A stretch of DNA of 64,000 bases from Rhizorhabdus histidinilytica (GTDB lineage Bacteria > Pseudomonadota > Alphaproteobacteria > Sphingomonadales > Sphingomonadaceae): NCBI RefSeq assembly GCF_900167915.1, contig NZ_FUYM01000011.1, forward strand, positions 124,001-188,000, in the 5' to 3' direction. Position 1 is the stretch's first letter; each line of letters starts with the position of its first letter. The notes below the pieces were generated by a model. It did no database searches and was not told where the DNA came from. It saw only the letters and a list, made by a program, of their open reading frames with translations. A program made the translations under genes and the position numbers. Positions 8,322-37,581 of this stretch are shown piece after piece.

Positions 8322-8339
8322 AGCAAGCGACTGGTTGGT
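8322..8339. promoter_or_regulatory. Candidate operator, family A (TetR-like palindrome)
   Basis: AGCAAGCGACTGGTTGGT matches 14 of 18 positions of the palindrome ACCAAGCGATCGCTTGGT shared by six other sites in the window. It lies 36 bases upstream of the cupin start on the minus strand, where a repressor would block transcription. Confidence 0.55.
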
Positions 8340-8402
8340 TCAAGCCCAGCCGCCCGATCCGTGTCATTGCCTTCCTGCGACCAACGCGACAATGAAGAAG
8401 GG

Positions 8403-8426
8403 AGATCCCAGCTTCTGCTGGGATGA
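8403..8426. repeat. Single REP-like unit
   Basis: A solitary copy of the unit found twice at 6560-6653, with core ATCCCAGCTTCTGCTGGGAT. It lies just beyond the TauD stop codon at 8439 and may protect or terminate that transcript. Confidence 0.7.
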
Positions 8427-8438
8427 CGTGACATGAGC

Positions 8439-9374
8439 TCAGACCTTCCCAAGCACCCGGCCGAGACCATAATCGCCGGCCAGGCTGGTCCGCTGCATGC
8501 GGCGCGGATGGTGCGGGGGGACGCCTTCGGCCGAATGCAGCGCCCGCCAATTGTCCCAGATGATCATGTCGCCCACCGCCCATCGGTGGAAATAGGCGAA
8601 GTCGGCGGTGCAGCAATGGTCGATCACCGCGCCGAGCAGCGCGTCGCCCTTGGGATCGTCCATGCCGACGATGCCGACCGCGAACAGCGGCGCGACGTTG
8701 AGCACCTTCCGGCCGCTGTCGCGATCGGTATAGACCATCGGGTGGGCGACCGGCGGGAAATCGCGGTCGAGCACGTCGCCGTCGAACATCCCGGCCTTCA
8801 TCGATGGCGCCACCAGCGCCATGTCGGCGGGGCGGCAATAGCGGCGCTTCATCATGTCGGGCTGGAAGCGATAGACAACGTCGAGTCCCTCGATCCGCCG
8901 CTTGAGATCGTCGGGCAGCAGCTCGTACAGGCGGATGCGGTCCATGAAGCCGGTGCGGCCGCCCTCGGGCGGCACCTCCAGCGCGCGCAGCATGCTGCCA
9001 TGGTTGATCTCGGCCATGTAGGACAGGTCGAAATGCCAGGGCAGCCAGCCGGCCAGCTCGCGCCCCTCGATCCGGTAGACGGCATGGTAGGACAGGTCCC
9101 CCGGCCGCCGGGGCGGGGTGTAGGACATGTCGACCACCTCGGGAAAACCCTCGACCTGGTTCCTGTTGACCGGGTGGACCTGGAGCCTGCCGAAGCAGCG
9201 GCTGAGCGCGACATGGATGTCGGGCGAGGTGCCGATGCGCGGGAATAGCAGCACGCCATGGTCGGCGAAGGCCCGGCGCAGCGCCTCGGTCATTGCGGGA
9301 TCGCCGATCCGGGCGGGATCGAGGGTGATGCGCGCGCCGACATGGGGGGAGAGCTTCTCGATGGTGATGGGCAT
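8439..9374 (-). CDS. TauD/TfdA-family Fe(II)/2-oxoglutarate dioxygenase (copy 1)
   Basis: A 311-residue member of the TauD/TfdA family (PF02668), which hydroxylates substrates using Fe(II), O2 and 2-oxoglutarate. The iron site is seen as WHFD (HxD) near residue 113, with the distal His in DNWRALHSAEG near residue 279 and the 2-oxoglutarate-binding Arg in HPRRMQRTS just after. The start at 9374 leaves 11 bases after the amidohydrolase stop, so the two are co-transcribed. A longer upstream frame merely overlaps that gene. A paralogue in the same context is at 20738-21619. Typical TauD/TfdA substrates are sulfonates, phenoxyacetates and carnitine-like compounds; the substrate here is unknown. 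Confidence 0.88.
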   Translation of the reverse strand: MPITIEKLSPHVGARITLDPARIGDPAMTEALRRAFADHGVLLFPRIGTSPDIHVALSRCFGRLQVHPVNRNQVEGFPEVVDMSYTPPRRPGDLSYHAVYRIEGRELAGWLPWHFDLSYMAEINHGSMLRALEVPPEGGRTGFMDRIRLYELLPDDLKRRIEGLDVVYRFQPDMMKRRYCRPADMALVAPSMKAGMFDGDVLDRDFPPVAHPMVYTDRDSGRKVLNVAPLFAVGIVGMDDPKGDALLGAVIDHCCTADFAYFHRWAVGDMIIWDNWRALHSAEGVPPHHPRRMQRTSLAGDYGLGRVLGKV

Positions 9375-9385
9375 GGCGGCCTCCC

Positions 9386-11068: not shown

Positions 11069-11114
11069 GGGCTCTCCTTACGGCTGGGCATCGCTCGGCC
11101 GTTGGCGGCGAATC

Positions 11115-11150
11115 GTTCATATATATGTTTGAATATTCTGTAATATGAAC
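11115..11150. promoter_or_regulatory. Candidate IclR operator, family B
   Basis: Perfect 8-base inverted arms, GTTCATAT at 11115-11122 and ATATGAAC at 11143-11150, are separated by 20 AT-rich bases. The element sits 47 bases upstream of the amidohydrolase start and just below the IclR gene. An imperfect copy with the same 20-base spacing is at 15820-15855. GTTC-type arms are known for IclR-family sites such as those of PcaU/PcaR, so the adjacent regulator is the natural candidate. Confidence 0.55.
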
Positions 11151-11216
11151 AAGAGGCGTGCGTCAACGCGCCGCGCAGGACGGACGATCGTGTGCGATGA
11201 AGCCGAAATGGAGCGG

Positions 11217-12041
11217 TCAGACTGCCGCGATGGAATGTCCGAGCAGGCCGGAAATCTCGCGGCCCGCCTCGCGCACCGCGTCGGCCAGCTCGTCCGACCG
11301 CTGGAGCGCTCGGCTGACCACCGAGGAGATGATCACCACCCCCGCGATCGTGCCGCCGGCATCGAAGACCGGCGCGCCGAAGCCGAGGATGCTCTCGTCC
11401 ATCTGGCCGATGGCGATCGACACGCCCTGCTCGCGCACCTGGCGGTACATCGCCTTGAGCTCGTCGATCCCGGTCAGCGTCTTGGCCGTGTGGCGGACGC
11501 GGTCGACCGAGCGGAGATAGGCGTCGACGAAGCCGTCCGGCAGGTGCGCCAGCATCACCCAACCCCCGGTCGAGGCATAGAGCGGCGTATGGTTGCCTAT
11601 GATCCCCGAGACGCGCACCGTGTGGCGGCTCTCGATCGCGTCGACATAGACGACATGGCGCTCGTCCTGCGACAGCACGCCCAGGATCACCGTCTCGCCC
11701 ACCTTGTCCGCGAGCCGCTGGAGTGCGGGCCGCGCGATCGCCGGCAGCCGGCCCGAGCGCAGGGTCGAGATGATCAGGTTGGCGAGGGCATAGGCTTCCC
11801 GCCCGAGATGGTAGGCGCCATTGGCCGAGGTGACGTAGCCCAGGCTCTGCAACCCGCGCAGGATGTTGAGCAGGCTGCTCTTGGGGATGCCGGTCTGCGC
11901 GCTGAGCGAAGCGAGGCTGGCACCGTTCGGCGAAGCGCGGGACAGCAGGTCGAGGATTTGCGGCAGCCGTGCCACCGACAGGGTCGCCGCTCCGCGCGGG
12001 GCGATCTGCGGGGTGACGGCGGCGGCGGAACGTGGCGGCAT
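11217..12041 (-). CDS. IclR-family transcriptional regulator
   Basis: A 274-residue regulator with an N-terminal winged helix-turn-helix (LPQILDLLSRA followed by LSAQTGIPKSSLLNILRGL, residues about 26-66) and a C-terminal IclR effector domain (GIIGNHTPLYASTGGWVMLA, then the GVVIISSVV strand). The family senses small aromatic or organic acids and binds palindromes in its own or neighbouring promoters. It lies between the TonB receptor and the amidohydrolase, all on the minus strand, and probably controls the amidohydrolase-TauD-cupin genes below it and the MFS/TonB-receptor operon above. Effector unknown. Confidence 0.9.
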   Translation of the reverse strand: MPPRSAAAVTPQIAPRGAATLSVARLPQILDLLSRASPNGASLASLSAQTGIPKSSLLNILRGLQSLGYVTSANGAYHLGREAYALANLIISTLRSGRLPAIARPALQRLADKVGETVILGVLSQDERHVVYVDAIESRHTVRVSGIIGNHTPLYASTGGWVMLAHLPDGFVDAYLRSVDRVRHTAKTLTGIDELKAMYRQVREQGVSIAIGQMDESILGFGAPVFDAGGTIAGVVIISSVVSRALQRSDELADAVREAGREISGLLGHSIAAV

Positions 12042-12177
12042 GCTTCCCTCGTGTCGGTCGGGCGGCGGTCGGTCGGGCGACGGGGCGCACTCCTCTCTCC
12101 TCTCCTACAGAAGCGGCCGGTTGGCCACACGAATCTTGGAAGGCGCCGGCGTCCGGAAGGATGCCGGCGCCTTCGGT

Positions 12178-14460
12178 TCAATAGACGATGCGGGCGGTGC
12201 CGCCGATCCGGCGGGGCTGGCCGAACACCTGCACGCCGAAGCCCGAGGCACCGAAGTCGACGCCGCCGGTGACGATGTCCTTGTCGAGCAGGTTCTCGCC
12301 CCACACCGACAGCTCGAGCTTCGCGCGCGGCCCGACGTCGACGTCGGCCAGGGTGATGCGCGCGCTCAGCAGCTTCTGGCCGGGATCGCGCACCTCATTG
12401 TTGAACGGGTTCACGTTCGGCAGGTTGATCGTGTGGAAATAGCGCGTGCTGCTCCACGAATAGTCGGCCCTTACCGACAGCGTCCCCATCGACAGCGGCG
12501 GGAACTCATATTGCGCGCCGACATGCGTCGTCCATTTCGGCACATAGGGGACGTGCGCCTGGTCGGCATAGTTGGTGATGACGTTGTTCGCCGGGTTCGG
12601 GAAATAGATCTCGTCATAGACCGCCTTGGTGTAGCCGATGCTGCCGTCGATGGTCAGGCCGCGCAGCGGGATCGCCTGCACCTCGCCCTCGAACCCCTGG
12701 AAATGCGCCTGGGCGTTGGAGGTGAAGCCCGATCCGCCGCCCGGCGTTATGCCGGTGAACTGATTGACCTGAAGGTCCTTGTAGTCGGTATAGAACACCG
12801 CACCGTTCCAGCGCAGCCGCCGGTCGAACCATTCGGACTTGATGCCCGCTTCATAGGCCATCGCCTTTTCCGGCTCGAACAGGAAGCTGCCCGCCGCCGC
12901 GGCGCGGGTGTTGAAGCCGCCCGAACGATAGCCGGTGCCGACCCGGCCGTAGAGCATCAGCGCATCGGTCGCCTGGAAGTTCAGCGTGACGTTGTAGGCG
13001 GTGTTGTGGAAAGTGCGCTCGCCGCTGCGCGCGATCGTCGAGAGTTGCCGCGCGCGCTTCTTGTCGATCGTGTAACGCAGGCCGACGGTCAGCTCGACCC
13101 GGTCGTCGAGGATCGGCGGCGTGTAGCTCGTCTGACCGAAGCCGGCATAGGAAGTGCCGTGGATCTTGTAGTCGGTCAGGCTGGTCGCGTTGGTGCCGAC
13201 CAGGCCGACATTGGGCACATTGGCGATACGGGTGGAGAAGCTGGTATTCTCGTCGCGGCCGTGCTCGTCGAAATAATAGAAGCCGGCGACATAGTCGAAG
13301 CGCCCGGCCGATCCGAGCAACTGGAACTCCTGCGAATATTGGTGCTGCCGGATATAGCGGTCGCTCTCCGACGGTTGGACATGCGCGACCGCGCCCGCCG
13401 CCGAGACGACGCCGAGCAGGTTGGCGGCGACATAGATGGTCGGGACATAGGAGAAGATCTTGCGATAGGCGCTGATCGACTTGAGGGTCAGTGCGGGGCC
13501 GACCTCATATTCGAGGGTCAGGGCATGGCCGTAGCTGCGGGTGCGCTGCGGCTTGCGCACCGCCAGCGGCACCGTGTCCGACCGGCCCTGCTGGATGAAG
13601 AAGGGATCGCCGCCCAGCGCGGTCGAACGGCCGTAATAGGTGCGGACGGTCGGGGTCGCCGCGACGAACTGATAGGCGGCGGGGCGGCCCTGCTGGGCGT
13701 TGTAGTCGAACGCATAATCGGCGGAGAAGTCGCCCCAGCGGCCATGGACGCGGGTCCACACCGCATCGCTGGCGAGAGCGCCGGGGTCCTTGTCGTCAGG
13801 GGCATAGGGATTGTCGACGAAGCCGTCGCGCTGGCGCCGCTGGTAGCTGACCGTCGCGGCGATGCCGGTGCCGCCGATCTCGCCGGTGTTGATCCGGGCG
13901 AGCGCGACGAACTGGTTGCCCTCGGCATATTCGAGCTTGGCGGTGGCTCCGAAATCGGCCGAAGGCGCCTTGGTGACGAGGTTGATCGCGCCGCCGGTGG
14001 TGTTGCGGCCGAACAGCGTGCCCTGCGGACCGCGCAGCACCTCGACCCGCTGCAGGTCGACCAGGTCGAAATTGCCGGCGTTGGACCGCGCGATATAGAC
14101 ACCGTCGAGATAGATGCCGACAGCCTGGTCGATCGCCAGGATCGGGTCGGCATTGCCGATGCCGCGGATATAGGCGACCGTGCCCGCGATCGATCCGCCC
14201 GCCGGGGCGAGCGCGATATTGGGGGTGAGCTGGCTCAGCCGGTCGACCGTCAGCACGCGCTGCTGCTCGATCTGGGCGGAGGACAGCGCCGATACCGACA
14301 CCGGGGTCGACTGCAATATCTCCTCGCGCCGCCGCGCGGTGACGGTGATCTCCTCGAGCCGGATGCCGTCGCCGCCGTCCTGTGCGAAGGCGGGTTCGGT
14401 GACCAGACAGGCCGCCGCGCAGCCCGCCAGCATCATCGTTCGTGCCCTCAACTGAACCAT
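12178..14460 (-). CDS. TonB-dependent outer-membrane receptor 1
   Basis: A 760-residue receptor starting MVQLRARTMMLAGCAAACL after the Shine-Dalgarno GGAGGGGACA; this start gives a short signal peptide ending near PAFAQ. The plug domain has ITVTARRREEILQSTPVSVS, then VEVLRGPQGTLFGRNTTGG, and the beta-barrel ends with an aromatic residue (TARIVY). It would import a large or scarce organic substrate across the outer membrane. It lies 55 bases below the MFS gene in the same orientation, so the two probably form an uptake operon. It resembles the receptor at 32402-34681 in plug motifs and barrel layout. Confidence 0.92.
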   Translation of the reverse strand: MVQLRARTMMLAGCAAACLVTEPAFAQDGGDGIRLEEITVTARRREEILQSTPVSVSALSSAQIEQQRVLTVDRLSQLTPNIALAPAGGSIAGTVAYIRGIGNADPILAIDQAVGIYLDGVYIARSNAGNFDLVDLQRVEVLRGPQGTLFGRNTTGGAINLVTKAPSADFGATAKLEYAEGNQFVALARINTGEIGGTGIAATVSYQRRQRDGFVDNPYAPDDKDPGALASDAVWTRVHGRWGDFSADYAFDYNAQQGRPAAYQFVAATPTVRTYYGRSTALGGDPFFIQQGRSDTVPLAVRKPQRTRSYGHALTLEYEVGPALTLKSISAYRKIFSYVPTIYVAANLLGVVSAAGAVAHVQPSESDRYIRQHQYSQEFQLLGSAGRFDYVAGFYYFDEHGRDENTSFSTRIANVPNVGLVGTNATSLTDYKIHGTSYAGFGQTSYTPPILDDRVELTVGLRYTIDKKRARQLSTIARSGERTFHNTAYNVTLNFQATDALMLYGRVGTGYRSGGFNTRAAAAGSFLFEPEKAMAYEAGIKSEWFDRRLRWNGAVFYTDYKDLQVNQFTGITPGGGSGFTSNAQAHFQGFEGEVQAIPLRGLTIDGSIGYTKAVYDEIYFPNPANNVITNYADQAHVPYVPKWTTHVGAQYEFPPLSMGTLSVRADYSWSSTRYFHTINLPNVNPFNNEVRDPGQKLLSARITLADVDVGPRAKLELSVWGENLLDKDIVTGGVDFGASGFGVQVFGQPRRIGGTARIVY

Positions 14461-14515
14461 TGTCCCCTCCTCTGTCGTCATTGTGGAATCCAGGCAGGCT
14501 GGTGGACGTGGCGGG

Positions 14516-15772
14516 TCAGCTCGTCGGCTGGGTGCCTCCGCCACCGGTGCGGGCGCGGACCGCCGGCACGCCGGTGCGCAGGCCGATCGTCGCCGACAGG
14601 AACAGGGTGATGCCGATCGCCAGGAAGGCGCCGTGGCCGCCCAGGTTGGTGAACAGCAGGAAGAACAGCAGCGGGCTCAGGAACTGGCCCAGATTGATCG
14701 CGGGCGACAGCAGCCCGATCGCGCGCCCGCGCGTCTCGGGTGCGGCCCGGTCGAGCAGGATGTTGAGCATATAGGGCTGCATCAGCCCGCCGCCGGTGCC
14801 GAGCAGGATGCAGCCGAAAGCCGACAGCATCAGCATGTGCGACAGGCCGAGGATGGTGACGCCCGATCCGATCAGCGCCAGGTTGAGCGCGAACATCCGC
14901 CGCGCGCCGATCCGCACCTGCAGGCTGCCGTAGAACAGCGATCCGATGGTGTAGGCCAGCGTGCCGGCGGTGATCACCCAGGCGATGGTGGTCGGCGGCA
15001 CGTCATGGTCCGACGCCAGCAGCAGCGGCACCTGCGTCTGGTTGAGGATGGTGATCGTCGAGATCGCCAGCACCACCGCATAGACCGGCCAGAGGATCAG
15101 GACGGCCATCGTCCCGGTGCCGCCGGCCGCGGCGCGTCCCTTCTCGCGCGGCGGCGATTCGACCGCGAACAGGACGATGCACAGCATCACCAGCGCGACC
15201 GCGCCGTAGAGGGCGAACGGCATGCGCCAGCCCGCAGCCTCGGCGATCCGGGCCGACATCATCACCGACAGCACCGCGAAGCCAGCCGCCACCGTCGTCT
15301 TGAAGCCGAGCGCGCGGGCCCGCCCGCCGCCCACCAGGCTATCGCCGAGCAGGGTGACGCTGGCGGTGAAGATCGTCGCCGCGCAGAAGCCCAGGCCGAA
15401 GCGTGCGGCGAACAGCGCGGGGGCGCTTTCGAGCACCAGCCCGGCCGATCCGAACAGTCCGTAGAGTGGCAGCGCGGCGAGCAGCACCTGCCTGATGCCG
15501 GCCCGCTCGATCAGCCAGCCGGCGATCGGGCCGCCGACCACCACCCCCAGGCTGGCGGTGGTCACGACGAGCTGCGCGACCAGCGCGGCCGAGGCGTCGT
15601 GGCCGAAATGGGATTTGATCGCGACCATGCTGGGCGACAGCGCGGTCGTCATCAGGCCGGTGAAGCAACCGCCCGAGATCATCACGAAGATCGCCAGCAT
15701 CCGCCGGAAGCGTGCGACGGGGCTCGCGCCCAGCGCGACATAATCGCCCAAGCTGGCACTCTGGCTGTCCAC
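14516..15772 (-). CDS. MFS transporter 1
   Basis: A 418-residue major facilitator with about twelve hydrophobic segments. The start is the GTG at 15772, supported by GAGAGG six bases upstream and by the family N-terminus; no in-frame ATG is closer. The first helix region reads FVMISGGCFTGLMTTALSPS and the loop 2-3 motif is GWLIERAGIRQV. The close paralogue at 28069 shares the same loop (GWLIERIGIRAV), which suggests transport of related compounds. It precedes the TonB receptor and its promoter region carries both family A and family B operator-like sites. Confidence 0.87.
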   Translation of the reverse strand: MDSQSASLGDYVALGASPVARFRRMLAIFVMISGGCFTGLMTTALSPSMVAIKSHFGHDASAALVAQLVVTTASLGVVVGGPIAGWLIERAGIRQVLLAALPLYGLFGSAGLVLESAPALFAARFGLGFCAATIFTASVTLLGDSLVGGGRARALGFKTTVAAGFAVLSVMMSARIAEAAGWRMPFALYGAVALVMLCIVLFAVESPPREKGRAAAGGTGTMAVLILWPVYAVVLAISTITILNQTQVPLLLASDHDVPPTTIAWVITAGTLAYTIGSLFYGSLQVRIGARRMFALNLALIGSGVTILGLSHMLMLSAFGCILLGTGGGLMQPYMLNILLDRAAPETRGRAIGLLSPAINLGQFLSPLLFFLLFTNLGGHGAFLAIGITLFLSATIGLRTGVPAVRARTGGGGTQPTS

Positions 15773-15819
15773 AGCCTGCCTCTCCCGATCCGTGCCTACC
15801 GATCGTTGCGGCCAGCATC

Positions 15820-15855
15820 GTTCCTATATGTGATCATGTGACGATAAATGTGAAC
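15820..15855. promoter_or_regulatory. Candidate IclR operator, family B (imperfect)
   Basis: GTTCCTAT at 15820-15827 and ATGTGAAC at 15848-15855 form imperfect inverted arms with the same 20-base spacing as the perfect element at 11115-11150. The site is 48 bases upstream of the MFS start on the minus strand. Confidence 0.4.
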
Positions 15856-15864
15856 GGTTTGCCT

Positions 15865-15882
15865 GTCAACCGACCGGTTGGT
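15865..15882. promoter_or_regulatory. Candidate operator, family A
   Basis: GTCAACCGACCGGTTGGT matches 13 of 18 positions of the family A palindrome and lies inside the near-palindrome CAACCGACCGGTTGGTTG (15867-15884). It is in the divergent gap between MFS transporter 1 and the alcohol dehydrogenase. Confidence 0.5.
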
Positions 15883-15974
15883 TGAGTTGAATTCCAGGGT
15901 AGGGGCAGGCTCGCCCGCCGGAAATAGACGTTGTTCCATTGCGAAATGAATGATGCTCATGGTGATTTTTACCA

Positions 15975-15992
15975 AACAAGCGATTGTCTGGT
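15975..15992. promoter_or_regulatory. Candidate operator, family A
   Basis: AACAAGCGATTGTCTGGT matches 14 of 18 positions of the family A palindrome. It is 58 bases upstream of the alcohol dehydrogenase start, in the same divergent gap as the site at 15865-15882. Confidence 0.5.
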
Positions 15993-16050
15993 TTTTCCGT
16001 GGCTGCTAGTTTCGTGCCGCTTGCCCGGAGAGGCGAGAAAGGAGAGCCGG

Positions 16051-17169
16051 ATGCGCGCAGCCCTGTTGCACCATGACAGTCATACCCCGCGGCTGGAGGA
16101 GGTCGCGGTCGAGGAGCCCCGCTTCGGCGAGGTGCTGGTCCGGATCGCCGCCTCGGGCATCTGCGGGTCGGACCTCCACGTCGTCCACAATCGCAGCAAT
16201 GTCGGCAAGGACCGCCCGGTCATCCTGGGCCATGAGGGCGCGGGCGTGGTCGAGGCGGTCGGGCCCGGTGTCCGCGACCTCAAGCGGGGCGACCATGTCG
16301 TGATGGCGATGTTCGGGCCGTGCGGCCATTGCGATCAGTGCAACAGCGGCAAGCTCCAATTCTGCGACGGCCCCGAGTTCAAGAGCGCGGTCGGGCGCAT
16401 GGCCGACGATTCGACCCGCTTCTCGCAGGATGGGCGCATGGTCTTTCCAATGGTCGGCGTCGGCTCGCTCGCCGAATATGCGGTGATGCGGGAGGCGATG
16501 CTGGTCAAGGTCGCGCCGCATCTGCCGCTCGACCGGCTTTGCTTCTGCGCCTGTTCGGTGACGACCGGGCTCGGCGCGGTATTCAACGTCGCCAGGGTGA
16601 CGCCGGGGGCCAGCGTCGCGGTGATCGGCTGTGGCGGCGTCGGCCTCAACGTGATCCAGGGATCGCGGATCGCGGGCGCGTCGCGCATCATCGCGATCGA
16701 CACCAATCGGGCGAAGCTCGACATCGCTTCGAACATGGGCGCGACCGACCTGATCCAGAGCGGCGGCGACCCGGCCGAGGTCGACGCGGCGGTCAAGGCG
16801 CTCGAACCGCGTGGCGTGGATTTCGCCTTCGAGGTGGTCGGCAATCATGCGCTGATCCGCCAGGCGGTGGGCTTCACCGGGCGCGGCGGGACGACGGTGA
16901 TGATCGGCGGCGTGCCCTGGGCGTCGGACGTCTCGGTCAATGCCGGGTTGCTGTTCGGCGAGCGCAAGCTGATGGGCTGCCTCGGCGGCGGCAACATACC
17001 GGGGCGGGAGATCCCGCGCATCGTCGGCCTCTACGAGCGCGGCATGCTAAAGCTCGACGAACTGGTAGGGAAGACCTTCGATTTCAACGACATCGGCGAG
17101 GCGATCGCCGAGGCCGACCGGGCGCAGACCGCGAAGACCGTGGTCGCGATCGACCGCGCCTTGCTCTGA
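16051..17169 (+). CDS. Zinc-dependent alcohol dehydrogenase
   Basis: A 372-residue medium-chain dehydrogenase. The catalytic zinc ligands are in GICGSDLH and GHEGAGVVE, and the structural zinc is bound by the four Cys of CGHCDQCNSGKLQFC. The Rossmann motif is GCGGVGLNVIQG, followed by AIDTNRAK whose Asp points to NAD+ over NADP+. The start at 16051 follows GAAAGGAGAGCCGG and removes a 40-codon upstream extension of no family similarity. It is 18 bases from an aldehyde dehydrogenase, so the pair can oxidise a primary alcohol to a carboxylic acid. Two family A operators lie upstream. Confidence 0.92.
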   Translation: MRAALLHHDSHTPRLEEVAVEEPRFGEVLVRIAASGICGSDLHVVHNRSNVGKDRPVILGHEGAGVVEAVGPGVRDLKRGDHVVMAMFGPCGHCDQCNSGKLQFCDGPEFKSAVGRMADDSTRFSQDGRMVFPMVGVGSLAEYAVMREAMLVKVAPHLPLDRLCFCACSVTTGLGAVFNVARVTPGASVAVIGCGGVGLNVIQGSRIAGASRIIAIDTNRAKLDIASNMGATDLIQSGGDPAEVDAAVKALEPRGVDFAFEVVGNHALIRQAVGFTGRGGTTVMIGGVPWASDVSVNAGLLFGERKLMGCLGGGNIPGREIPRIVGLYERGMLKLDELVGKTFDFNDIGEAIAEADRAQTAKTVVAIDRALL

Positions 17170-17187: not shown

Positions 17188-18684
17188 ATGGCGGACTATG
17201 ACCGCGCCGACACGCGCGTGCGGCGCTTCCAGAATCTGATCGACGGCCAGTCGCGGCCGGCCGCGAACGGTGGCTGGATCGACAGCATCGATCCCGCGAC
17301 CGGGCAGGTCTGGGCGCAGATTCCCGACGGCCGCGCCGACGATGTGGACGCTGCCGTCGCCGCCGCGAAGCGCGCCTTCCGCGGGCCGTGGCGGCAGATG
17401 GCGGCGGCGCAGCGCGCGGCGCTGCTGCGTAAGGTGGCCGATCTGGTCGCCCCCCGGCTGGAGGAGCTGGCGGTCATCGAGACCCGCGACAACGGCAAGA
17501 TCATCAACGACACCCGGGCCGGAGACATCCCCGCGATCGCGCAGATGTTCCATTACTGGGCGGGTGCCGCCGACAAGATCCACGGCGAGACGATCCAGGT
17601 CAGCCCCGCGAGCGTGAACTATGTCCAGCGCGAGCCGATCGGCGTGGTCGGCATCATCGTGCCGTGGAACTCGCCGGGCTCGGTGTTCGCGGCGAAGGTC
17701 GGCGCGGCGCTGGCGGCGGGGAACACCGTCGTCGTCAAGCCGGCCGAGACCGCGTCCTGCTCGATCCTCGTCCTTGCGGAGCTGTTCGAACAGGCGGGCT
17801 TCCCGCCCGGCGTGGTCAACGTGGTCGCCGGCCTCGGAGCGGAGGCGGGGGACGCGATCGCCGGCCATCCCGACGTCGGCAAGATCAGCTTCACCGGATC
17901 GACCCTGACCGCGCGGGCGATCACCCGCCGCTCGGCCGAGGCGATCAAGCCGTTGAGCTTCGAGCTGGGCGGCAAGTCGGCCAACATCGTCTTCGCCGAC
18001 GCCGATCTCGATGCGGCAGCCATCGGCGTCACCACGATGGGCATCTTCAACGGCGCCGCCGGCCAGTCGTGCATTGCCGGGTCGCGCATCCTGGTGCAGC
18101 GCCCGATCTATGACGAGATGATCGAGCGGATGGTGAAGATCATCACCGGCATCCGGTTGGGTGATCCGATGGACGCCGCCAGCCAGATGGGCCCGATCGC
18201 GCTCGACCGGCAATTCGAGAAGGTGAAATCCTATCTCGACCTCGGCCGGCAGGAAGGCGGCGAGGCGGTGTGCGGTGGTCTGGCTGGCGAGGCGGTGTTC
18301 GGCGCCGGATCGCCCCATGCCGGCGGCTATTTCGTCCAGCCGACGCTGTTCGCCGGGCTCGACAACCGGGCACGCACCGTGCGCGAGGAGATTTTCGGCC
18401 CGGTCGCCTGCGTGCTGCCGTTCGACGATGCCGAGGAGGCGGTCGCGATCGCCAATGATTCGAACTATGGCCTCGCCTGCGGGCTGTGGACCAACGATCT
18501 CAAGCGCGCCCACCGCATGGCGGCGGCGATCGAGGCGGGGGCGGTGTGGGTCAACACCTATCGCCGCCTGCACTGGGCGGTGCCGTTCGGCGGCTACAAG
18601 GACAGCGGCTATGGCCGCGACAGCGGAATGGAGAGCCTGCGCGGCTATCAGCAGACCAAGTCGGTCTGGATCGATCTAGCCTAA
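17188..18684 (+). CDS. NAD(P)-dependent aldehyde dehydrogenase
   Basis: A 498-residue aldehyde dehydrogenase (PF00171). Visible are PWNSPGSVFAAKVGAALAAG near residue 160, the catalytic Glu motif FELGGKSANI near residue 257, the catalytic Cys in GQSCIAGSR near residue 292, and the C-terminal PFGGYKDSGYGRD. It has the usual family length and is preceded by AGGAATGGGG. It should complete oxidation of the aldehyde made by the neighbouring alcohol dehydrogenase. The 275 bases after it are AT-rich and hold the promoter region of the next operon. Confidence 0.93.
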   Translation: MADYDRADTRVRRFQNLIDGQSRPAANGGWIDSIDPATGQVWAQIPDGRADDVDAAVAAAKRAFRGPWRQMAAAQRAALLRKVADLVAPRLEELAVIETRDNGKIINDTRAGDIPAIAQMFHYWAGAADKIHGETIQVSPASVNYVQREPIGVVGIIVPWNSPGSVFAAKVGAALAAGNTVVVKPAETASCSILVLAELFEQAGFPPGVVNVVAGLGAEAGDAIAGHPDVGKISFTGSTLTARAITRRSAEAIKPLSFELGGKSANIVFADADLDAAAIGVTTMGIFNGAAGQSCIAGSRILVQRPIYDEMIERMVKIITGIRLGDPMDAASQMGPIALDRQFEKVKSYLDLGRQEGGEAVCGGLAGEAVFGAGSPHAGGYFVQPTLFAGLDNRARTVREEIFGPVACVLPFDDAEEAVAIANDSNYGLACGLWTNDLKRAHRMAAAIEAGAVWVNTYRRLHWAVPFGGYKDSGYGRDSGMESLRGYQQTKSVWIDLA

Positions 18685-18861
18685 TCCTGTTCCAAACCTA
18701 TCAAGTGCTTAGTGTCATTTTCCGGTCATTCGCGATTCTCGCATTTGCTGCCGGTTCGAAATCCAGGAAGAAAATTTTAAAATAAGATACTGATTTCTAT
18801 AAATTAAAAGAAGGTGTGCCGCCGTCCGCTCCGGCACGCATCCCTTCTTCTCGTCGATATA

Positions 18862-18879
18862 GACAAGCGATCGGTTGGT
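18862..18879. promoter_or_regulatory. Candidate operator, family A
   Basis: GACAAGCGATCGGTTGGT matches 15 of 18 positions of the family A palindrome. It lies 80 bases upstream of amidohydrolase copy 2, in the AT-rich gap 18685-18959, which otherwise shows no gene. Confidence 0.6.
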
Positions 18880-18959: not shown

Positions 18960-20693
18960 ATGACGGGCGTTGCCGAACATTTCGATCTTCTGATCCGCAA
19001 CGGCATCGTCGTCGACGGCACCGGCCTGCCGCGCCGCCGGCTCGACGTCGGCATCCGCGACGGCAGGATCGCCAAGTTCGCGCATCTGGGGGAAGCGACC
19101 GCCGACGAGGAGATCGACGCCGCAGGCTGCATCGTCGCCCCCGGCATCGTCGATCCGCACACCCATTATGATCCGCAGATCACCTTCGACCCTTATGCCA
19201 CCGTATCCTGCTTCCACGGCGTGACGACGGTGCTGGCGGGCAATTGCGGCTTCTCGGTCGCGCCCTGCAAGGCCGAGGACCGCGAATATCTGAAGGGCAT
19301 CTTCGCCCGGGTGGAGGAGATGAACCCGATCGCGCTCGGCGCCGTCCGCTGGGACGAGTTCGAGACGTTCGACGAATTCCTCCAGACCCGCAAAGGCAGG
19401 CTCGGCATCAACTTCGCCTGCTATGTCGGCCATTCGAACCTGCGCCGCTGGGTGATGGGCGACGATTCGCATCGCCGCGCGGCGACCGAGGACGAGGTCC
19501 GGCAGATGCGGGCGATGCTGGCCGAGGCGCTGGAGGCCGGCGCCGCCGGCCTCTCCTCCTCGGCGGCGGCGGTGCACATGGACATCAACGGCGACCCGGT
19601 GCCGTCGCGCCTCGCCGAGCGCTCCGAATTCCTGGCGCTGGCCGAGGAACTGGGCCGCTTCGGCAAGGGGTCGATCACCTTCCTGCCGGCCAGCTCGATC
19701 GGCGGCCTCAACGAGGAGGACAAGGAGTATCTGATCGAGCTCGGCAAGCGATCGGGCGTGCCGATCATCATCCAGGGGCTGGGCGGGCGCAACAAGGTCG
19801 ATGCCCCGACCGCGACCTGGGAGGCGTCGGTCGAATTCCTCGACCGGGCGACGGCGGCCGGTGCGCCGGTCTATTCGCTGCTGATCTCCCGCCCGTTCGA
19901 CCGGCCGGTGGTGTTCAGCCCCGAATGCCCGCATTATGCGGCGGTCGCGTCGTGGCATGCGATGATGCGGCTGCCGAAGGCGGAGCGCGACGCGCTGTTG
20001 CGCGATCCCGCCGCACGCGACGAGATGCGCCAGGCGGTCGAGAACTACAACCGTGATCCCAAGAAGGGCACGATCCTGCCGCCGCCGCTGTGGACCGCGC
20101 TGTTCGTCGACCATGTCGCGAACGATCGCAATGCCGGGCTGCAGGGCAAGAGCGTCGCCGAGATCGCCGCGGAAACCGGCAAGGCGCCCGGCGACGTAGT
20201 GCTCGACCTACTGCTCGACGAGGACATGGCGACCGAGTTCCGCTGGCGCACCGAGACCCCCGAATGGGCCGAGGCGGTGCGCGTCGCGCAGCAGGACCCG
20301 CGCATGATCGTCGGCGTGTCCGACGGCGGCGCCCATCTCGCCAAGGACGACGCGGCCGATTGGAGCTCCTACTTCCTGCGCTCCTGGGTGCTCGATCGCG
20401 GCGCCTGGACGCTGGAGGAGGGCATCCGCCAGATCACCCAGATCCCGGCCTCGCTGCTCGGCCTGGTCGATCGCGGCACGCTGAAGGTGACCGGCCCGGC
20501 CGACATCATGATCTTCGATCCCGAGACGATCGGCCCGTGGCGCAAGGAATTCGCGCGCGACCTGCCGGGCGGCGTCGGGCGGTTCAAGGCGTGGGGCAAG
20601 GGCGTCAAGGCGACGATCGTCAACGGCCGGCCGATCGTCCTCGACGGCGCGCTGACCACCAACCTGCCCGGCGAGGTGGTGTCGCCGGCCTGA
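18960..20693 (+). CDS. D-aminoacylase-like amidohydrolase (copy 2)
   Basis: A 577-residue amidohydrolase with FDLLIRNGIVVDGTGLP at the N-terminus, metal motif DPHTHYDPQ near residue 67, NCGFSVAPC near residue 96, and VSDGGAHLAKDDAAD with the catalytic Asp near residue 450. It ends with the TGPADIMIFDPETIGPW strand typical of N-acyl-D-amino-acid deacylase-like enzymes. A GGAGAAG ribosome site precedes ATG. It heads an operon-like run in which TauD, cupin and HyuB/HyuA follow. The same first three functions occur in the same order on the minus strand at 7579-11068, so the module seems duplicated. Confidence 0.9.
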   Translation: MTGVAEHFDLLIRNGIVVDGTGLPRRRLDVGIRDGRIAKFAHLGEATADEEIDAAGCIVAPGIVDPHTHYDPQITFDPYATVSCFHGVTTVLAGNCGFSVAPCKAEDREYLKGIFARVEEMNPIALGAVRWDEFETFDEFLQTRKGRLGINFACYVGHSNLRRWVMGDDSHRRAATEDEVRQMRAMLAEALEAGAAGLSSSAAAVHMDINGDPVPSRLAERSEFLALAEELGRFGKGSITFLPASSIGGLNEEDKEYLIELGKRSGVPIIIQGLGGRNKVDAPTATWEASVEFLDRATAAGAPVYSLLISRPFDRPVVFSPECPHYAAVASWHAMMRLPKAERDALLRDPAARDEMRQAVENYNRDPKKGTILPPPLWTALFVDHVANDRNAGLQGKSVAEIAAETGKAPGDVVLDLLLDEDMATEFRWRTETPEWAEAVRVAQQDPRMIVGVSDGGAHLAKDDAADWSSYFLRSWVLDRGAWTLEEGIRQITQIPASLLGLVDRGTLKVTGPADIMIFDPETIGPWRKEFARDLPGGVGRFKAWGKGVKATIVNGRPIVLDGALTTNLPGEVVSPA

Positions 20694-32285: not shown

Positions 32286-32401
32286 GACTGTCCTCTCCCT
32301 ATTCGTCCTTCCCGAAAAAAGGGCGCCGGATCACGGCGCCCCCTTTCCATCGGTTGGAAGCCGGCCGGCTGTTGGCTCCGGCCGGCTCCCGTCCCCCGTT
32401 C

Positions 32402-34681
32402 TCAGAAGCTGACCTTGAGATCGAGGCCGAAGCGCCGCGGCGGCGCATAGCTGTTGATCGCGAAGCCCAGCGCACCGAAGTCGATGCCCGAGATGATGTT
32501 GTGGCGGTTGGTGATGTTGTCGACATAGAAGGACAGGTCGACCGTGGTCGCGCCGAGCGAGATGTCGGTCAGGCCGATCCGCCCGTCGAGCCGCTTGTTC
32601 GCGCCCGACCGGATGTTCCGGTAGAAGACGTTCCCCGAGAACTGGTTCGCGTGGAAGAAGCGGTTGCTCATATAGGAATAGGCGAGCCGGGCCAGCGGTC
32701 GGCCGAAGCCGACGTCGTCGCCTTCATACTGGATGCTCGCATTGGCCGTCCATTTCGGCACATAGGGGAATTCGCTCTGGTCGGCGGCGTTGAAGAAGGT
32801 GCCGGGCACCGCCGGATTGGGAGCGATGAACACCTTGTACTTGGGATCGACGTAGCCGAGGCTGCTCGACAGGGTCAGGCCCTTCACCGGCACCGCCTGC
32901 AATTCGCCCTCGAAGCCCTTGAACGTCGCCTTCGCGTTGGAGGTGAAGCCGCCGCTGTTGCCGACCGCGGTGGTGACGAACTGGGTCACCTGCAGGTTGC
33001 TGTAGTCGGTGTGGAACACCGCGGCGTTCCAGCGCAGCCGCCGGTCGAAGAACTCGGTCTTGATGCCGGCTTCAACCGTCTTCGCCTTCTCGGGCAGGAA
33101 GACGAAGTTCTGCGTCGCCGAGGCGCGGGTGTTGAACCCGCCCGAGCGATAGCCGGTGCCGTAGCGGGCATAGGTCATCACGCGATCGGTGAACTGGTAG
33201 GAAACGATCGCGTTGAACGAGGTGTTGTTGAAGGTGTTCTTGCCGTTGCGGATGCTCGGCAGAGTCTGGCTCACCTCCTTCTTGTCCTTGGTGTAGCGGA
33301 CACCGGCGGTCAGCTCGAGCTTGTCGTCGAGCGCGGCCGGGCGATAGCTCGCCTGGCCGAAGGCCGCATAGGACTTCGCCTTGAAACCGAATTGCAGCAC
33401 CGATGCGGTGTTCGACGCCAGGGTCGGCGAGATGACGAAGGTCGAATTGGACGGGTTGGTCGTCGACCCGTCCTCCTTGAAGTAATAGAGGCCCGCGACA
33501 TATTTGAATTGGCCGGTGTCGCCGAGCACCTGGAATTCCTGCGAAACCTGGTCGGTCTCCTCGACCTTCTTGAGGCTCAGGAACGGATAGACTTCCTTGA
33601 TGCCGGTCGTGGTCGGGCCGAACACGCCGGGCGGGCCGTAATAGGTGCCCAGCGGATTGGCGCGATAGGAACGGAAGCCGGTGATCGACTTGAAGTTCAA
33701 CGCGTCCGACACATGATATTCGAGGGTCAGGCCATGGCCCCAGATCTTGACCTTCTGCTGCCCGGCGATGGCGAGGTTGAGCGACTTCTTGTAGGACTCG
33801 CTGACGTTGCTCAGGAACAGGCCGCCATTGGTGGCGTTGGTGTAATAGCCGCGGACGTTGTTCGAGATGAAGCGCGGCTGCTGCGCCAGCGGCAGGCCCC
33901 TCAGGTCGTTCCAGTCGAAGATGTAGGTGGCGCTGAAATCGCCCCATTCGCCCTTCACCTTCGCCCATACCGCATCGCTGTTGAGGCTGCCCGGCGTCGT
34001 CGCCCGGCTCGACGAGAAGGGGTTCTTGGTGAAGCCGGCATGCTCCATATGCTGGTAGGACAGCGTCGCCGCGATCCCGGTATTGCCGAGCTTGCCGGTG
34101 TCGAAGCGGGCGGCCGCCTGCCGCTCGCGATAATTGGCGACGCCCAGCTTGATCGCGCCGCCCATCTCCTCCGACGGGTCCTTGGTGGTCATGCTGATCG
34201 CGCCGCCGGTGGTGTTGCGGCCAAACAGCGTGCCCTGCGGGCCGCGCAGCACTTCGACCCGCTGCAGGTCGACCAGCGCGAAGTTCGCCGCGTTGCTGCG
34301 GCCGACATAGATGCCGTCGATGTAGATGCCGACCGGCGAGTCGACCGTCAGCAGCGGCTCCTGCGTGCCGATGCCGCGGATGAAGGCGGTGTTGCCGCCC
34401 AGGAAGCCCGACTGCTGCTGGATCGAGACGTTCGGGACCATCGTCGTGATCCGGTCGATCTGGGTGACGTTGGCGCGCGCGAGCATCTTTTCGGACACCG
34501 CCGACACCGACACCGGCGTGGTCTGCAGATTTTCCGCCTGGCGGCGGGCGGTCACGACGATCTCCTCGAGGCCCTGGCGCTGCTCGTCCGCCTGGTCGGG
34601 GACGGTCTGCGCCGAGGCGCCGTTTGCCAAGGCCGTCAGTGAAACGCCGGCCAGGATGGTCAACACCGTTTTGCGTGTCAT
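32402..34681 (-). CDS. TonB-dependent outer-membrane receptor 2
   Basis: A 759-residue receptor with signal peptide MTRKTVLTILAGVSLTALAN ending at ASAQ. The plug domain contains EEIVVTARRQAENLQTTPVS and VEVLRGPQGTLFGRNTTGG, and the barrel ends with GLDLKVSF, whose last residue is the usual terminal Phe. It resembles receptor 1 closely in its plug and last strands. Its 175-base upstream region carries two family A operators (34720-34737 and 34808-34825), the highest local density in the window. It presumably imports the island's growth substrate. Confidence 0.93.
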   Translation of the reverse strand: MTRKTVLTILAGVSLTALANGASAQTVPDQADEQRQGLEEIVVTARRQAENLQTTPVSVSAVSEKMLARANVTQIDRITTMVPNVSIQQQSGFLGGNTAFIRGIGTQEPLLTVDSPVGIYIDGIYVGRSNAANFALVDLQRVEVLRGPQGTLFGRNTTGGAISMTTKDPSEEMGGAIKLGVANYRERQAAARFDTGKLGNTGIAATLSYQHMEHAGFTKNPFSSSRATTPGSLNSDAVWAKVKGEWGDFSATYIFDWNDLRGLPLAQQPRFISNNVRGYYTNATNGGLFLSNVSESYKKSLNLAIAGQQKVKIWGHGLTLEYHVSDALNFKSITGFRSYRANPLGTYYGPPGVFGPTTTGIKEVYPFLSLKKVEETDQVSQEFQVLGDTGQFKYVAGLYYFKEDGSTTNPSNSTFVISPTLASNTASVLQFGFKAKSYAAFGQASYRPAALDDKLELTAGVRYTKDKKEVSQTLPSIRNGKNTFNNTSFNAIVSYQFTDRVMTYARYGTGYRSGGFNTRASATQNFVFLPEKAKTVEAGIKTEFFDRRLRWNAAVFHTDYSNLQVTQFVTTAVGNSGGFTSNAKATFKGFEGELQAVPVKGLTLSSSLGYVDPKYKVFIAPNPAVPGTFFNAADQSEFPYVPKWTANASIQYEGDDVGFGRPLARLAYSYMSNRFFHANQFSGNVFYRNIRSGANKRLDGRIGLTDISLGATTVDLSFYVDNITNRHNIISGIDFGALGFAINSYAPPRRFGLDLKVSF

Positions 34682-34719
34682 TCCTCTACCCCTCTCCCAA
34701 ACATCACTCTATTTTGTTC

Positions 34720-34737
34720 ACCAAGTGATTGCTTGTT
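34720..34737. promoter_or_regulatory. Candidate operator, family A
   Basis: ACCAAGTGATTGCTTGTT matches 15 of 18 positions of the family A palindrome. It starts 39 bases upstream of the TonB receptor 2 start codon. Confidence 0.6.
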
Positions 34738-34807
34738 ATTCAAAACGAGTCAAGACGTTCGCTGATATCAACTGAAAAAAGCCTTATCGTTTCGGAATAT
34801 CATGCAC

Positions 34808-34825
34808 ATAGAGCGACCGCTTGGT
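34808..34825. promoter_or_regulatory. Candidate operator, family A
   Basis: ATAGAGCGACCGCTTGGT matches 14 of 18 positions of the family A palindrome; its right half is nearly perfect and the left half is weaker. It lies 127 bases upstream of TonB receptor 2 and 32 bases beyond the stop of the upstream LLM gene. Confidence 0.45.
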
Positions 34826-34856
34826 TATGGTGGCGGCATTGCGCAGGATTCCGCGT

Positions 34857-35990
34857 TCAGGCCGAACCCTGGCCGGCGCGATAGGCCGGTATGACATGCT
34901 CGCCGATCAGCCGGATCGTTTCCATGATGTCGGCGTGGGCAATTCCGCCCATCTGGAAAAGGAACAATATTTCGTCGGCGCCGGCCTCGGCGAGGCGGCG
35001 GACGTGGCGCAGGCAGTCCTGGGGATCGCCATAGGCGTCGTCGGCGACGTCGTGGATCGTCTCACGCGGGGACGACTCGATCCGCTCCTCGGAGATGTAT
35101 GCGACGACATTGGCCTTGCGCTCGGCCAGCGCGGCGGCGTTCTCGTCGGCCGACAGGTCCTCGGCGCTCGGGCGCGGGCCGCCCTGGTACCAGTGGGCGA
35201 GCGATTCGACGAAGAAGCGCTGCCCGCGCAGCCCGACCCGGCGGGCGCGCTCGCGATCCTCCAGCACGATCGTCGGGCACAAGGCGGCGAGGTGCTCGAT
35301 CGGGCGGAAGCCGACCTGCCTGGCCGGATCGCGCCCTGCATAGGCCTCGCGATAGACGGCGCTCTTGCGCGCGACCTCGGCCGGGCCGCTGAAGGCGAGG
35401 ACCAGCGCGCCGATGCCGCGCTCGCCGGCGGTCAGCAGGGCGTCGTCCTTGGTGCAGGCCATGTAGATCGGCGGGTGCGGCGTCTGCCACGGCTTGGGAT
35501 GGATCTCGCGCGGGGGGATCTTCACATAGGTGCCGTCGTGCGAGACGACCTCCTCGGTCATGATCCTGGGGATCAGGTACATCGACTCGGTGATCATCGG
35601 CGGCAGGTCGGCCAGCTCATAGCCGAAGGTCCCCGCCTCCTGCTGGGTGCCGCCCTTGCCCATGCCGAAATGGACGCGCCCCTTCGACAATATGTCGAGG
35701 GTCGCGATCCGTTCGGCGACCTTGACCGGGTGGTTCATCGCCGGCGGCAGGCAGACGACGCCATGGCCGATGCCGAGCCGCGTCGTCCGCCCCGCCAGAT
35801 AAGCGAGGAAGGTCTCGGGTGCGGACATATGCGCATATTGGGTGAGCGCGGTATGCTCGACCGCCCACACCGTGTCGAAGCCGAGCCGTTCGGCGAGCAA
35901 TGCCTGCTCGACGATCTCGTGGAAGACGCGCGCCTCGTTCTCGCGCGACGTGTCCACCATCTGGGCTTCGTAGATGATCGAGAATTTCAT
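34857..35990 (-). CDS. LLM-class flavin-dependent monooxygenase 2
   Basis: A 377-residue luciferase-like enzyme beginning MKFSIIYEAQMVD after AGGAAGCAGGCC; the longer frame from 36035 adds only a basic, low-complexity stretch. Family features are LLAERLGFDTVWAVEHT, RIATLDILSKGRVHFGMGKG near residue 95, and PHPPIYMACTKDDALLTAGE near residue 170. It has the longer form of the family, like alkanal or long-chain monooxygenases. It lies between TonB receptor 2 and a repeat element, on the same strand as both flanking genes. Substrate unknown. Confidence 0.86.
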   Translation of the reverse strand: MKFSIIYEAQMVDTSRENEARVFHEIVEQALLAERLGFDTVWAVEHTALTQYAHMSAPETFLAYLAGRTTRLGIGHGVVCLPPAMNHPVKVAERIATLDILSKGRVHFGMGKGGTQQEAGTFGYELADLPPMITESMYLIPRIMTEEVVSHDGTYVKIPPREIHPKPWQTPHPPIYMACTKDDALLTAGERGIGALVLAFSGPAEVARKSAVYREAYAGRDPARQVGFRPIEHLAALCPTIVLEDRERARRVGLRGQRFFVESLAHWYQGGPRPSAEDLSADENAAALAERKANVVAYISEERIESSPRETIHDVADDAYGDPQDCLRHVRRLAEAGADEILFLFQMGGIAHADIMETIRLIGEHVIPAYRAGQGSA

Positions 35991-36079
35991 GGCCTGCTTC
36001 CTGCCTGTCCGGGTTCGCGGGCCTTGTCGGCGCACCGCGGCCGCCGCGCCTCGTCCAGTTGGACGAGGTCGCCCCTGAA

Positions 36080-36266
36080 CCGTTCATCCTGAGAGTCTGA
36101 CTCAAAAGTCCCCGCTCGCCCTGAGGAAGCATTGAGCCTGGTCGAAATGCTGTCTCGAAGGGGCGTTCGAGGCTGGAAATATCCTTCGAGACGGGCCTTC
36201 GCCAGGCTCAGTCCTCCTCAGGATGAGCGGTAAGGGGTGTTCCGGTCAGACTCTCAGGATGAGCGG
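36080..36266. repeat. MITE-like element with 22-base terminal inverted repeats
   Basis: The ends, 36080-36101 (CCGTTCATCCTGAGAGTCTG then AC) and 36245-36266, are inverted repeats identical at 21 of 22 positions. Inside is a second inverted pair around 36116-36165 and 36183-36230 (TCGAAATGCTGTCTCGAAGG against CCTTCGAGACGGGCCTTCGC). The 187-base element encodes nothing and lies between the LuxR stop and the LLM start, so it may separate the two transcripts. No clear target duplication was found by eye. Confidence 0.65.
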
Positions 36267-36282
36267 ATGGGGGTGCGTCCAA

Positions 36283-37434
36283 TCAAAGGCGGGATGCTCT
36301 GGCTTTGCGATCGACGGCGGCCGGCCGCTCGGCGGGGACCAGCGTCTGGACGAGGGCGAGCAGCTCGGCCTGCCGGGTCGTGCCGGTCTTGGCGAAGATC
36401 GCGCGGAGATGCGCGCGTGCCGTGTTGTAGGTGATGCCGAGCCGCGAGGCGGCCTCGCGCAGCGTCTCGCCATTGGCCATCGCGGCGGTGACCGACGCTT
36501 CGGCGAAGGTGAGCGGCAGGGGGCCGCGCAGCGTCGCCGCGTCGAAGCGCGACCGGCGCGCCGGATCGCGCACCCGCAGCAGCAGCAGCTCGCGGTCCGA
36601 CGTCCAGACCGGCATCGCCGGCCGGATCGGGCGCACCGCGACGGCGATCGGCACGTCGTCGCCGGCCGGATCGACCAGCAGGGTGCAACCGGCTTCGTCG
36701 CCATGGCCGGGCGCCGCGTCGAGATAGGCGCCGAGCTGCCGGTCTGCCGCCGGGGTCGCCAGGCGCAGCCGGGTGTTGGACGTGCTCAGCCCCGCCCGGC
36801 GCGCGATCAGCTCGTCGGCGATGCCGTCGCTGACCATGATCCGGCGGTCGCGGTCGATCACTAGCGTGCCCTGTCCGCTCGCCGCCAGCGCGTCGCGCAG
36901 GATCGCGCATTCGGCGTCCCGGCGCATCGTCAGCGCCAGGCCCCTGAGCGCGATCGCCAGGTGCGGCACCATCGCCTCCATCCGCCCCCGCTCGCGCCTG
37001 CCGAAATCGGGCAGGCCGAGCAGCCGCGCGACCCTGACCCGCGCGACCAGGCCGGGGGCGGGGGTCATGTCGACGCCCAATATCTGATTGCCGACCGTTT
37101 CCGACAGATAAGCGCGGATGGCGCGGACCTCGCCCGCCGATCGTCGGCTCAGGAACTCGCCGAACGACACCACCCGTGTCTGCGGCAGTCCGACGAAGGG
37201 GTCGGTCGCGAAATGGCGGTCGACATAGAGCGCGGCGCGATGCCGGTCGCTGCCCGGCGACAGGATCTCGCGCGGGCGGTCCTCGCCAACGCGGGTCAGC
37301 AGCAGCACCGCGCGGCTCGCCCCCATATGGTCGGCGAAGGCGAGCAGGAATCGGTTCCATGCGGCGACGTCGGCCACGCCGGCATACAGCGCCTCGAGCA
37401 GCCTCGCGGGCGGCGTCTCGTCGCGTGTGGCCAT
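36283..37434 (-). CDS. LuxR-type transcriptional regulator
   Basis: A 383-residue protein with a C-terminal LuxR helix-turn-helix (LPLTFAEASVTAAMANGETL, then ASRLGITYNTARAHLRAIFA, residues about 300-350). The N-terminal 290 residues contain no domain I can name; a PAS-like segment (LVIDRDRRIMVSDGIADELI) lies near residue 195. It has no receiver-domain Asp motif, so it is probably a stand-alone ligand-sensing regulator. It is transcribed away from the divergent ipdA-like gene, with 172 bases between that include the best family A operator. It may activate the CoA-transferase-like pair. Confidence 0.82.
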   Translation of the reverse strand: MATRDETPPARLLEALYAGVADVAAWNRFLLAFADHMGASRAVLLLTRVGEDRPREILSPGSDRHRAALYVDRHFATDPFVGLPQTRVVSFGEFLSRRSAGEVRAIRAYLSETVGNQILGVDMTPAPGLVARVRVARLLGLPDFGRRERGRMEAMVPHLAIALRGLALTMRRDAECAILRDALAASGQGTLVIDRDRRIMVSDGIADELIARRAGLSTSNTRLRLATPAADRQLGAYLDAAPGHGDEAGCTLLVDPAGDDVPIAVAVRPIRPAMPVWTSDRELLLLRVRDPARRSRFDAATLRGPLPLTFAEASVTAAMANGETLREAASRLGITYNTARAHLRAIFAKTGTTRQAELLALVQTLVPAERPAAVDRKARASRL

Positions 37435-37563
37435 GGCTCTCCCCTTCCGGTGGCTCGGCTGATTCGGTCAGGCTATCAAGCGAATGTCCGGGTGGCAACC
37501 GGCCGCGGCCTGTGGCGGTGATACTTGGGATATTATCCCGAATATCGTCTGGCGATGTTGACA

Positions 37564-37581
37564 ACCAAGCGATCGCTTAGC
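37564..37581. promoter_or_regulatory. Candidate operator, family A (best copy)
   Basis: ACCAAGCGATCGCTTAGC matches 16 of 18 positions and contains the perfect 12-base palindrome AAGCGATCGCTT (37567-37578). It ends 25 bases upstream of the ipdA-like start, where binding would block transcription. Confidence 0.65.

Follow-up and report, generated by a model that had tools for sequence, protein, structure and literature searches.

What controls the catabolic island of Rhizorhabdus histidinilytica in which seven near-palindromic 18-mers recur between genes, and how far does that control reach? The window analysed here is a stretch of 64,000 nucleotides (NCBI RefSeq assembly GCF_900167915.1, contig NZ_FUYM01000011.1), written G000:C42:124001-188000 where G000 is the bacterium's own genome and C42 the contig holding the window; coordinates below are window positions unless a contig is named, with negative values lying 5' of the window. 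A sequence-only reading had assigned the seven 18-mers, between 8.3 and 37.6 kb, to one shared, probably TetR-type regulon spanning 30 kb. We find it very probable that these palindromes are genuine control sites, of the type that KstR2 recognizes; KstR2 is known from actinobacteria as the regulator of the final steps of cholesterol breakdown (papers are cited throughout for the parts of their text that we consulted). Judged from the sequence evidence, we hold with considerable confidence that one KstR2-like repressor of the TetR family, whose gene lies 7.4-8.0 kb upstream of the window, would use them as operators and jointly control the units beside them.

All seven 18-mers are present, at 8322..8339, 15865..15882, 15975..15992, 18862..18879, 34720..34737, 34808..34825 and 37564..37581 (sites 1 to 7), and they match the consensus ACCAAGCGATCGCTTGGT at 14, 13, 14, 15, 15, 14 and 16 of 18 positions in that order, within the range of 13-16 that had been claimed. 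Their placement between genes also stands: by our own codon-based gene calls, which are not a standard annotation, seven of seven lie in gaps of a window of which just 6.5% is intergenic, 25-127 bp ahead of the called starts of the genes that had been named as their neighbors. An exhaustive count of ACCAAGCGATCGCTTGGT at 13 or more of 18 positions returned eight places in the window, namely the seven sites and one coding position (47086), against a mean of 3.2 and a maximum of 7 in 100 Markov resamples of the window, while at 14 or more of 18 there were six against a mean of 0.35 and a maximum of 3. With leave-one-out matrices, each built from the other six sites, all seven rank above every non-site position in the 64 kb. 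The full site matrix, in a comparison that is partly circular, gave seven matches of at least 18 in the window against a mean of 0.07 and a maximum of 1 in 60 resamples, and no match above 13 in the window beyond 37.6 kb. Across 138.5 kb of C42 the top eight matches to this matrix comprise the seven sites plus a newly found eighth site at C42:116908 (-7092 to -7075), 7.1 kb ahead of the window, and a short-form box at C42:116784 (-7217 to -7194), also outside the window, ranks ninth; all nine are intergenic, in a stretch that is 10.7% intergenic.

The sites are conserved where their surroundings are not. The island is present in three further genomes of the genus (G008, G009 and G013), and in alignments anchored on the sites 6 of 144 columns vary within the eight sites across the four genomes, versus 464 of 847 columns in the non-coding flanks within 60 bp (Fisher p 8e-35, a value that treats columns as independent, which they are not truly). 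Sites 1, 4, 5 and 7 vary in 0 of 18 columns, site 6 in one, site 3 in two and site 2 in three, with site 2 decayed in G009 (score 14.9) and site 3 weakened in G008 (17.5).

The regulator had been predicted to lie outside the window, and it is there that we found a TetR gene, at C42:115961-116581 (-8039 to -7419, minus strand), one of 41 TetR_N matches in the organism's own genome; the eighth site lies between this gene and a divergent luciferase-like monooxygenase operon. The encoded protein combines TetR_N with TetR_C_24, and its closest PDB matches are 2ibd (140 bits), which bears the name 'possible transcriptional regulator' and which we take to be Rhodococcus KstR2, and M. tuberculosis KstR2 (131 bits), with the next at 69. 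Searched against seven genomes, the 2ibd segment in turn placed the regulator and its relatives on top, at 137 bits in G000 versus 53 for the next, such that within the PDB and these seven genomes the regulator is closest to actinobacterial KstR2 over its whole length, both ways, at ~37% identity. The recognition helix is almost identical, AGILSGSLYYHF in the regulator versus AGILSGSLYHHF in both KstR2 chains, and the protein should read DNA like KstR2. Two residues of KstR2, R162 and W166, which both KstR2 chains (M. tuberculosis and 2ibd) retain and which we take to be its HIP-CoA contacts, align with I and N in the regulator; as both are replaced, we do not class the protein as KstR2 itself, and on the basis of these two presumed contacts its effector may differ from HIP-CoA, and it may sense another acyl-CoA. 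Both residues fall within the conserved KstR2-5 motif YRFIRDTTW (PMC13176608). The KstR2-3 signature from the same source was dropped as a membership test because 2ibd is without it too. Two other assignments were tried and rejected, FadR of the Bacillus YsiA type, for which the NCBIfam equivalog score was 67 bits against a cut-off of 200, and EdcR, which needs the operator TnnCnnTACnAnTnGTAnnGnnA, misfitted by our sites, and a TetR_C_11 domain in place of TetR_C_24.

We then compared the sites with published KstR2 operators. The nine KstR2 motif instances in Kendall et al. 2010 (PMC3068626) comprise seven distinct sequences, and the main consensus given there is a 14-bp palindrome, AnCAAGnnCTTGnT. 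Most of our sites carry a wider 18-bp spacing that is present in one published instance, the R. jostii ro04652/04653 box, which contains ACCAAGCGATTGCTTGGT (gel shift entered there as 'not done') and matches ACCAAGCGATCGCTTGGT at 17 of 18 positions. The sequence-only reading had likened the half-sites to those of KstR2-type regulators while noting a different spacing; the likeness holds, and the difference is mostly removed, as the R. jostii box has equal spacing. This suggests that the published box is worth re-reading, since the R. jostii site fits the 18-bp ACCAAGCnnnnGCTTGGT more closely than the 14-bp form. For an independent test we used the seven published 24-mers as printed, a scan with the boxes brought into register with our own consensus being biased and not used. 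Over the 138.5 kb of C42 the ten best matches to the resulting matrix are all intergenic, seven of the eight sites stand among the best nine (15975, -7092, 8322, 37564, 34720, 18862 and 15865), and the top ten also hold two short-form boxes, at -7217 and, at rank 8, a weak one at 18695..18718; site 34808 is absent from the top 20. By comparison, 300 column-permuted matrices placed a mean of 2.6 (maximum 7) intergenic matches in their top ten and at most two on sites. As a control we used 77 loci whose TetR genes are more distant, and 9 of them contain some match to the published-box matrix above 16. Palindromic KstR2-like boxes were also observed near more distant TetR genes in Nocardioides (L158:10661 and L168:11232).

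Box and regulator also occur together across genomes. Within the genus, the regulator is present in four genomes (our own and 3 of 13 others), each with 11 strand matches to CAASCGAYYGSTTGGT at no more than one mismatch, and the ten genomes without the regulator have 0-6 such matches (reversed control, 0-2 per strand). KstR2-like proteins are rare in the genomes sampled: counting our own genome, they were found in 4 of 148 relatives at E <= 1e-40, in 3 of 385 genomes of the class at 1e-40 (10 at 1e-20), and in a single one of 398 genomes of the phylum at 1e-30. A scan of named genomes, with patterns that would miss actinobacterial KstR2, kept 80 loci, three of them (L148-L150) with matches of at least 48% that span almost the entire protein. 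In G391 the regulator is 48% identical and stands beside the same operon (monooxygenase 78%, hypothetical protein 51%, SDR 57%, ligase 55%, thiolase 65%, cyclase 71%, ChsH2-like protein 62%). G471, a distant alphaproteobacterium of the same genus as G391, has a 50% identical regulator on a 72-kb contig (C26:1-72047) that carries reshuffled island homologues (amidohydrolases, TauD, cupin-like, HyuAB, monooxygenases, SDRs) together with five long-form matches of at least 18, one of which overlaps the 5' end of a listed open frame; the matrix was not trained on G471, and 60 resamples gave a mean of 0.08 and a maximum of 1. Finally, in a Halioglobus metagenome-assembled genome (L150, G881) ACCAAGCAATCGATTGGT lies 183 bp before the regulator gene, with a second site on another contig.

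Across the whole genome of R. histidinilytica, the 14-bp core at no more than one mismatch has 16+12 strand matches (reversed control, 4+4), and the wider pattern, with two mismatches at most, has 40+34 (control, 18+23). Strict matches inside genes number six (C24:118360, C36:355716, C11:121783, C36:230553, C17:136639 and C28:575001), and these are probably chance; two further matches, C19:4400 (18.5) and C20:28578 (17.4), were assigned to neither the genic nor the intergenic class.

Several observations weigh against one regulator reading functional sites of this kind. The loose 14-bp core CAASCGAYCGSTTG at up to three mismatches is not enriched (57 found versus 53 expected from shuffles), so the signal resides in the whole pattern and its placement, and matrices and stricter counts have replaced that loose consensus scan here. 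Short-form boxes at up to two mismatches are likewise not enriched genome-wide (26+26 versus 40+32 in the control), and two of the genic matches, C36:355716 (19.8) and C28:575001 (18.2), score like the weakest real sites. Used in a symmetrised 14-bp register, the published boxes do less well, with seven of eight sites in the top 15 and five coding matches among these. The eighth site stands only 70 bp from the monooxygenase operon but 327 bp from the regulator gene, which leaves self-regulation of the regulator unsure, and in G391 the regulator's relative is preceded by a short-form box alone. The first of these observations is the one that would fit mere chance, palindrome-like words having been chosen by eye in gene gaps, an explanation that we regard as negligible in view of the leave-one-out ranks, the intergenic placement, the footprint and the independent KstR2 matrix. 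The last fits a different arrangement, in which the sites are real and read by another TetR-family protein (the genome's 41 TetR_N matches offer candidates) while the KstR2-like protein, with two box forms in existence, would be confined to the short-form boxes on C28 and in the vicinity of its own gene. We consider this improbable: the published KstR2 set itself includes the long form (R. jostii ro04652/53), in the Halioglobus genome the long form precedes the regulator gene, and the motif count tracks the regulator within the genus.

With a KstR2-like repressor as the preferred reader, the reach of the set can be assessed. The shared TetR-type regulon proposed by the sequence-only reading is well supported by sequence, and the set is wider than 30 kb, as sites also occur before the window and on a second contig, C28. 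Scores were obtained for 30 of 74 wider-pattern rows and 16 core-pattern loci (C58:6970 lies outside the scored set), and the best of those scored outside C42 is C28:236143 (27.7), a site that is also conserved in G008 and G009. It is flanked by an acyl-CoA ligase gene and a RibBA-like gene, the latter encoding DHBP synthase and GTP cyclohydrolase II domains; this site suggests that supply of flavin mononucleotide (FMN) is switched on alongside FMN-dependent monooxygenases. Four more boxes at C28:180349-191694, the first of which overlaps the end of the preceding gene, stand beside homologues of island genes (HyuB 54%, HyuA 58%, thiolase 45%, TonB receptor 58%). A further candidate site is C23:234113 (19.1). 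About 1 kb from this motif-like site, a single open frame at C23:235072-235815 contains two TetR_N matches and would thus encode a double TetR, reminiscent of Mce3R.

The genes beside the sites indicate what such a repressor might govern. Site 1 is 36 bp before a cupin-like gene (7579..8286, minus strand; so named by sequence reading, a Pfam match being absent), site 2 is 93 bp before MFS transporter 1 (14516..15772, minus), and site 3 is 58 bp before a zinc alcohol dehydrogenase gene (16051..17169, plus) followed by an aldehyde dehydrogenase gene (17188-18684). Site 4 precedes amidohydrolase copy 2 (Amidohydro_3; 18960..20693, plus) by 80 bp, and sites 5 and 6 precede TonB-dependent receptor 2 (32402..34681, minus) by 39 and 127 bp; a luciferase-like monooxygenase gene lies at 34857..35990 (minus). 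Site 7 is 25 bp before an ipdA-like gene of the CoA-transferase family (37607..38491, plus; 270 bits to 6co6_A), with an ipdB-like gene next (38494..39288, plus; 160 bits to 6con_B), and 130 bp before a LuxR-type regulator gene on the other side (36283..37434, minus; GerE domain slightly below cut-off). The hexamer TTGACA directly precedes the palindrome at ipdA, and this abutment, together with the distances of all seven sites from their genes, is as would be expected for repression; a simple promoter scan gave no sigma-70-like match in the ipdA direction and one on the opposite strand beside the site.

That site 7 faces the LuxR-type gene as well as ipdA raises the question of whether a regulator inside the island, either this one or the IclR-type gene at 11217-12041, reads the sites instead. 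A precedent of a kind exists in Caenibius tardaugens, in whose pdc progesterone cluster a luciferase-like monooxygenase acting on progesterone adjoins a LuxR-type regulator, with a TetR gene nearby (PMC12239570); our window likewise has a luciferase-like monooxygenase gene near a LuxR-type gene at 34857-37434, a likeness that rests on descriptions, and the text consulted describes no operator for that cluster. The motif nonetheless matches published KstR2 boxes, and no matrix match of at least 17 lies directly before the IclR-type gene, and we think control by either in-island gene very unlikely.

Under the KstR2-like repressor, the following course of events would be consistent with the arrangement. 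Without inducer, a repressor dimer would occupy ACCAAGCnnnnGCTTGGT in or beside the promoters and block the cupin-like, MFS transporter, alcohol dehydrogenase, amidohydrolase, TonB receptor, ipdAB and luciferase-like monooxygenase units. Release of the repressor would then come from a pathway intermediate, the likeliest being an acyl-CoA derived from a steroid-like or other polycyclic compound, and would turn on uptake, oxidation and CoA-dependent steps together, plus the riboflavin-type gene and the second island on C28.

As to the substrate, we tentatively infer a steroid-like or other polycyclic compound. We take the solved CoA-transferase chains matched by 37607-39288, 6co6 among them, to be IpdAB. 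A thiolase at C42:122801, near a ChsH2-like gene, is closest to 6ok1 (236 bits), which is titled a lipid-transfer protein and which we presume to be an Ltp2; the pair suggests retro-aldol side-chain removal. In actinobacteria ipdAB is a KstR2 target (PMC5380842), and the ipdAB-like genes here do bear a site, while of the other C/D-ring (HIP) genes none of echA20, fadD3, fadE30, ipdC and ipdF was identified in this analysis. G000 has a second ipdAB pair at C31:65588-69035 (57% and 56%), adjoining a TetR gene that is not KstR2-like and with no KstR2-type box within 40 kb, and the island pair is therefore separately controlled in G000. G008 also has a second ipdA (57%); G009 and G013 have no second copy, only relatives at 29-33%, and in these two genomes the island may hold the sole pair. 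For the ipdAB-like genes of G391, G471 and G005, the 20 kb examined contain no box. PDB searches with two conserved hypothetical proteins returned nothing useful. Among sphingomonads, S. wittichii RW1 grows on testosterone, and the A/B-ring and C/D-ring genes of S. wittichii lie in separate clusters (PMC4810484).

Set against KstR2 of Mycobacterium and Rhodococcus (PMC3068626), the system shares a TetR-type protein with a near-identical recognition helix, CAAG/CTTG boxes in the gaps of a catabolic island and ipdAB-like genes that bear a site. It differs in host phylum, in having several sites over ~45 kb and on a second contig, mostly in the wider 18-bp form, in a gene content of monooxygenases, amidohydrolases and TonB receptors, and in the replacement of R162 and W166. 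Like EdcR of Caenibius tardaugens (PMC8700777), it would place putative steroid genes of a sphingomonad under a TetR-type regulator, whereas neither the EdcR operator nor its C-terminal domain is as here. In the parts of the KstR2 literature that we consulted, mostly without subscription papers, no proteobacterial KstR2-type regulon is described.

Taken further, these likenesses and differences can be read as a second KstR2-type branch in Proteobacteria, a reading that we offer tentatively and lean slightly away from. Its DNA-reading half and box would have been kept and its ligand pocket changed (at the two presumed HIP-CoA contacts), and its regulon would be a reshuffling catabolic module for an undescribed polycyclic substrate, joining luciferase-like and 2-oxoglutarate oxygenases, amidohydrolases, Ltp2/ChsH2-like genes, TonB receptors and, in one genus, ipdAB, with the RibBA-like gene for FMN supply co-induced with the FMN-dependent monooxygenases. 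If so, the regulator and its operators in sphingomonads, a rhodospirillale and the Halioglobus genome would have been kept or spread across phyla while the ligand domain partly changed. The finding supplies a gene list for an unassigned pathway, a named regulator and candidate operators.

Two minor observations concern the window itself. The island's two TonB receptors (12178-14436 and 32402-34681) share 46% identity, with sites only at the second, and positions 43911-45986 encode a 691-aa protein that carries two acyl-CoA dehydrogenase units in a single chain.

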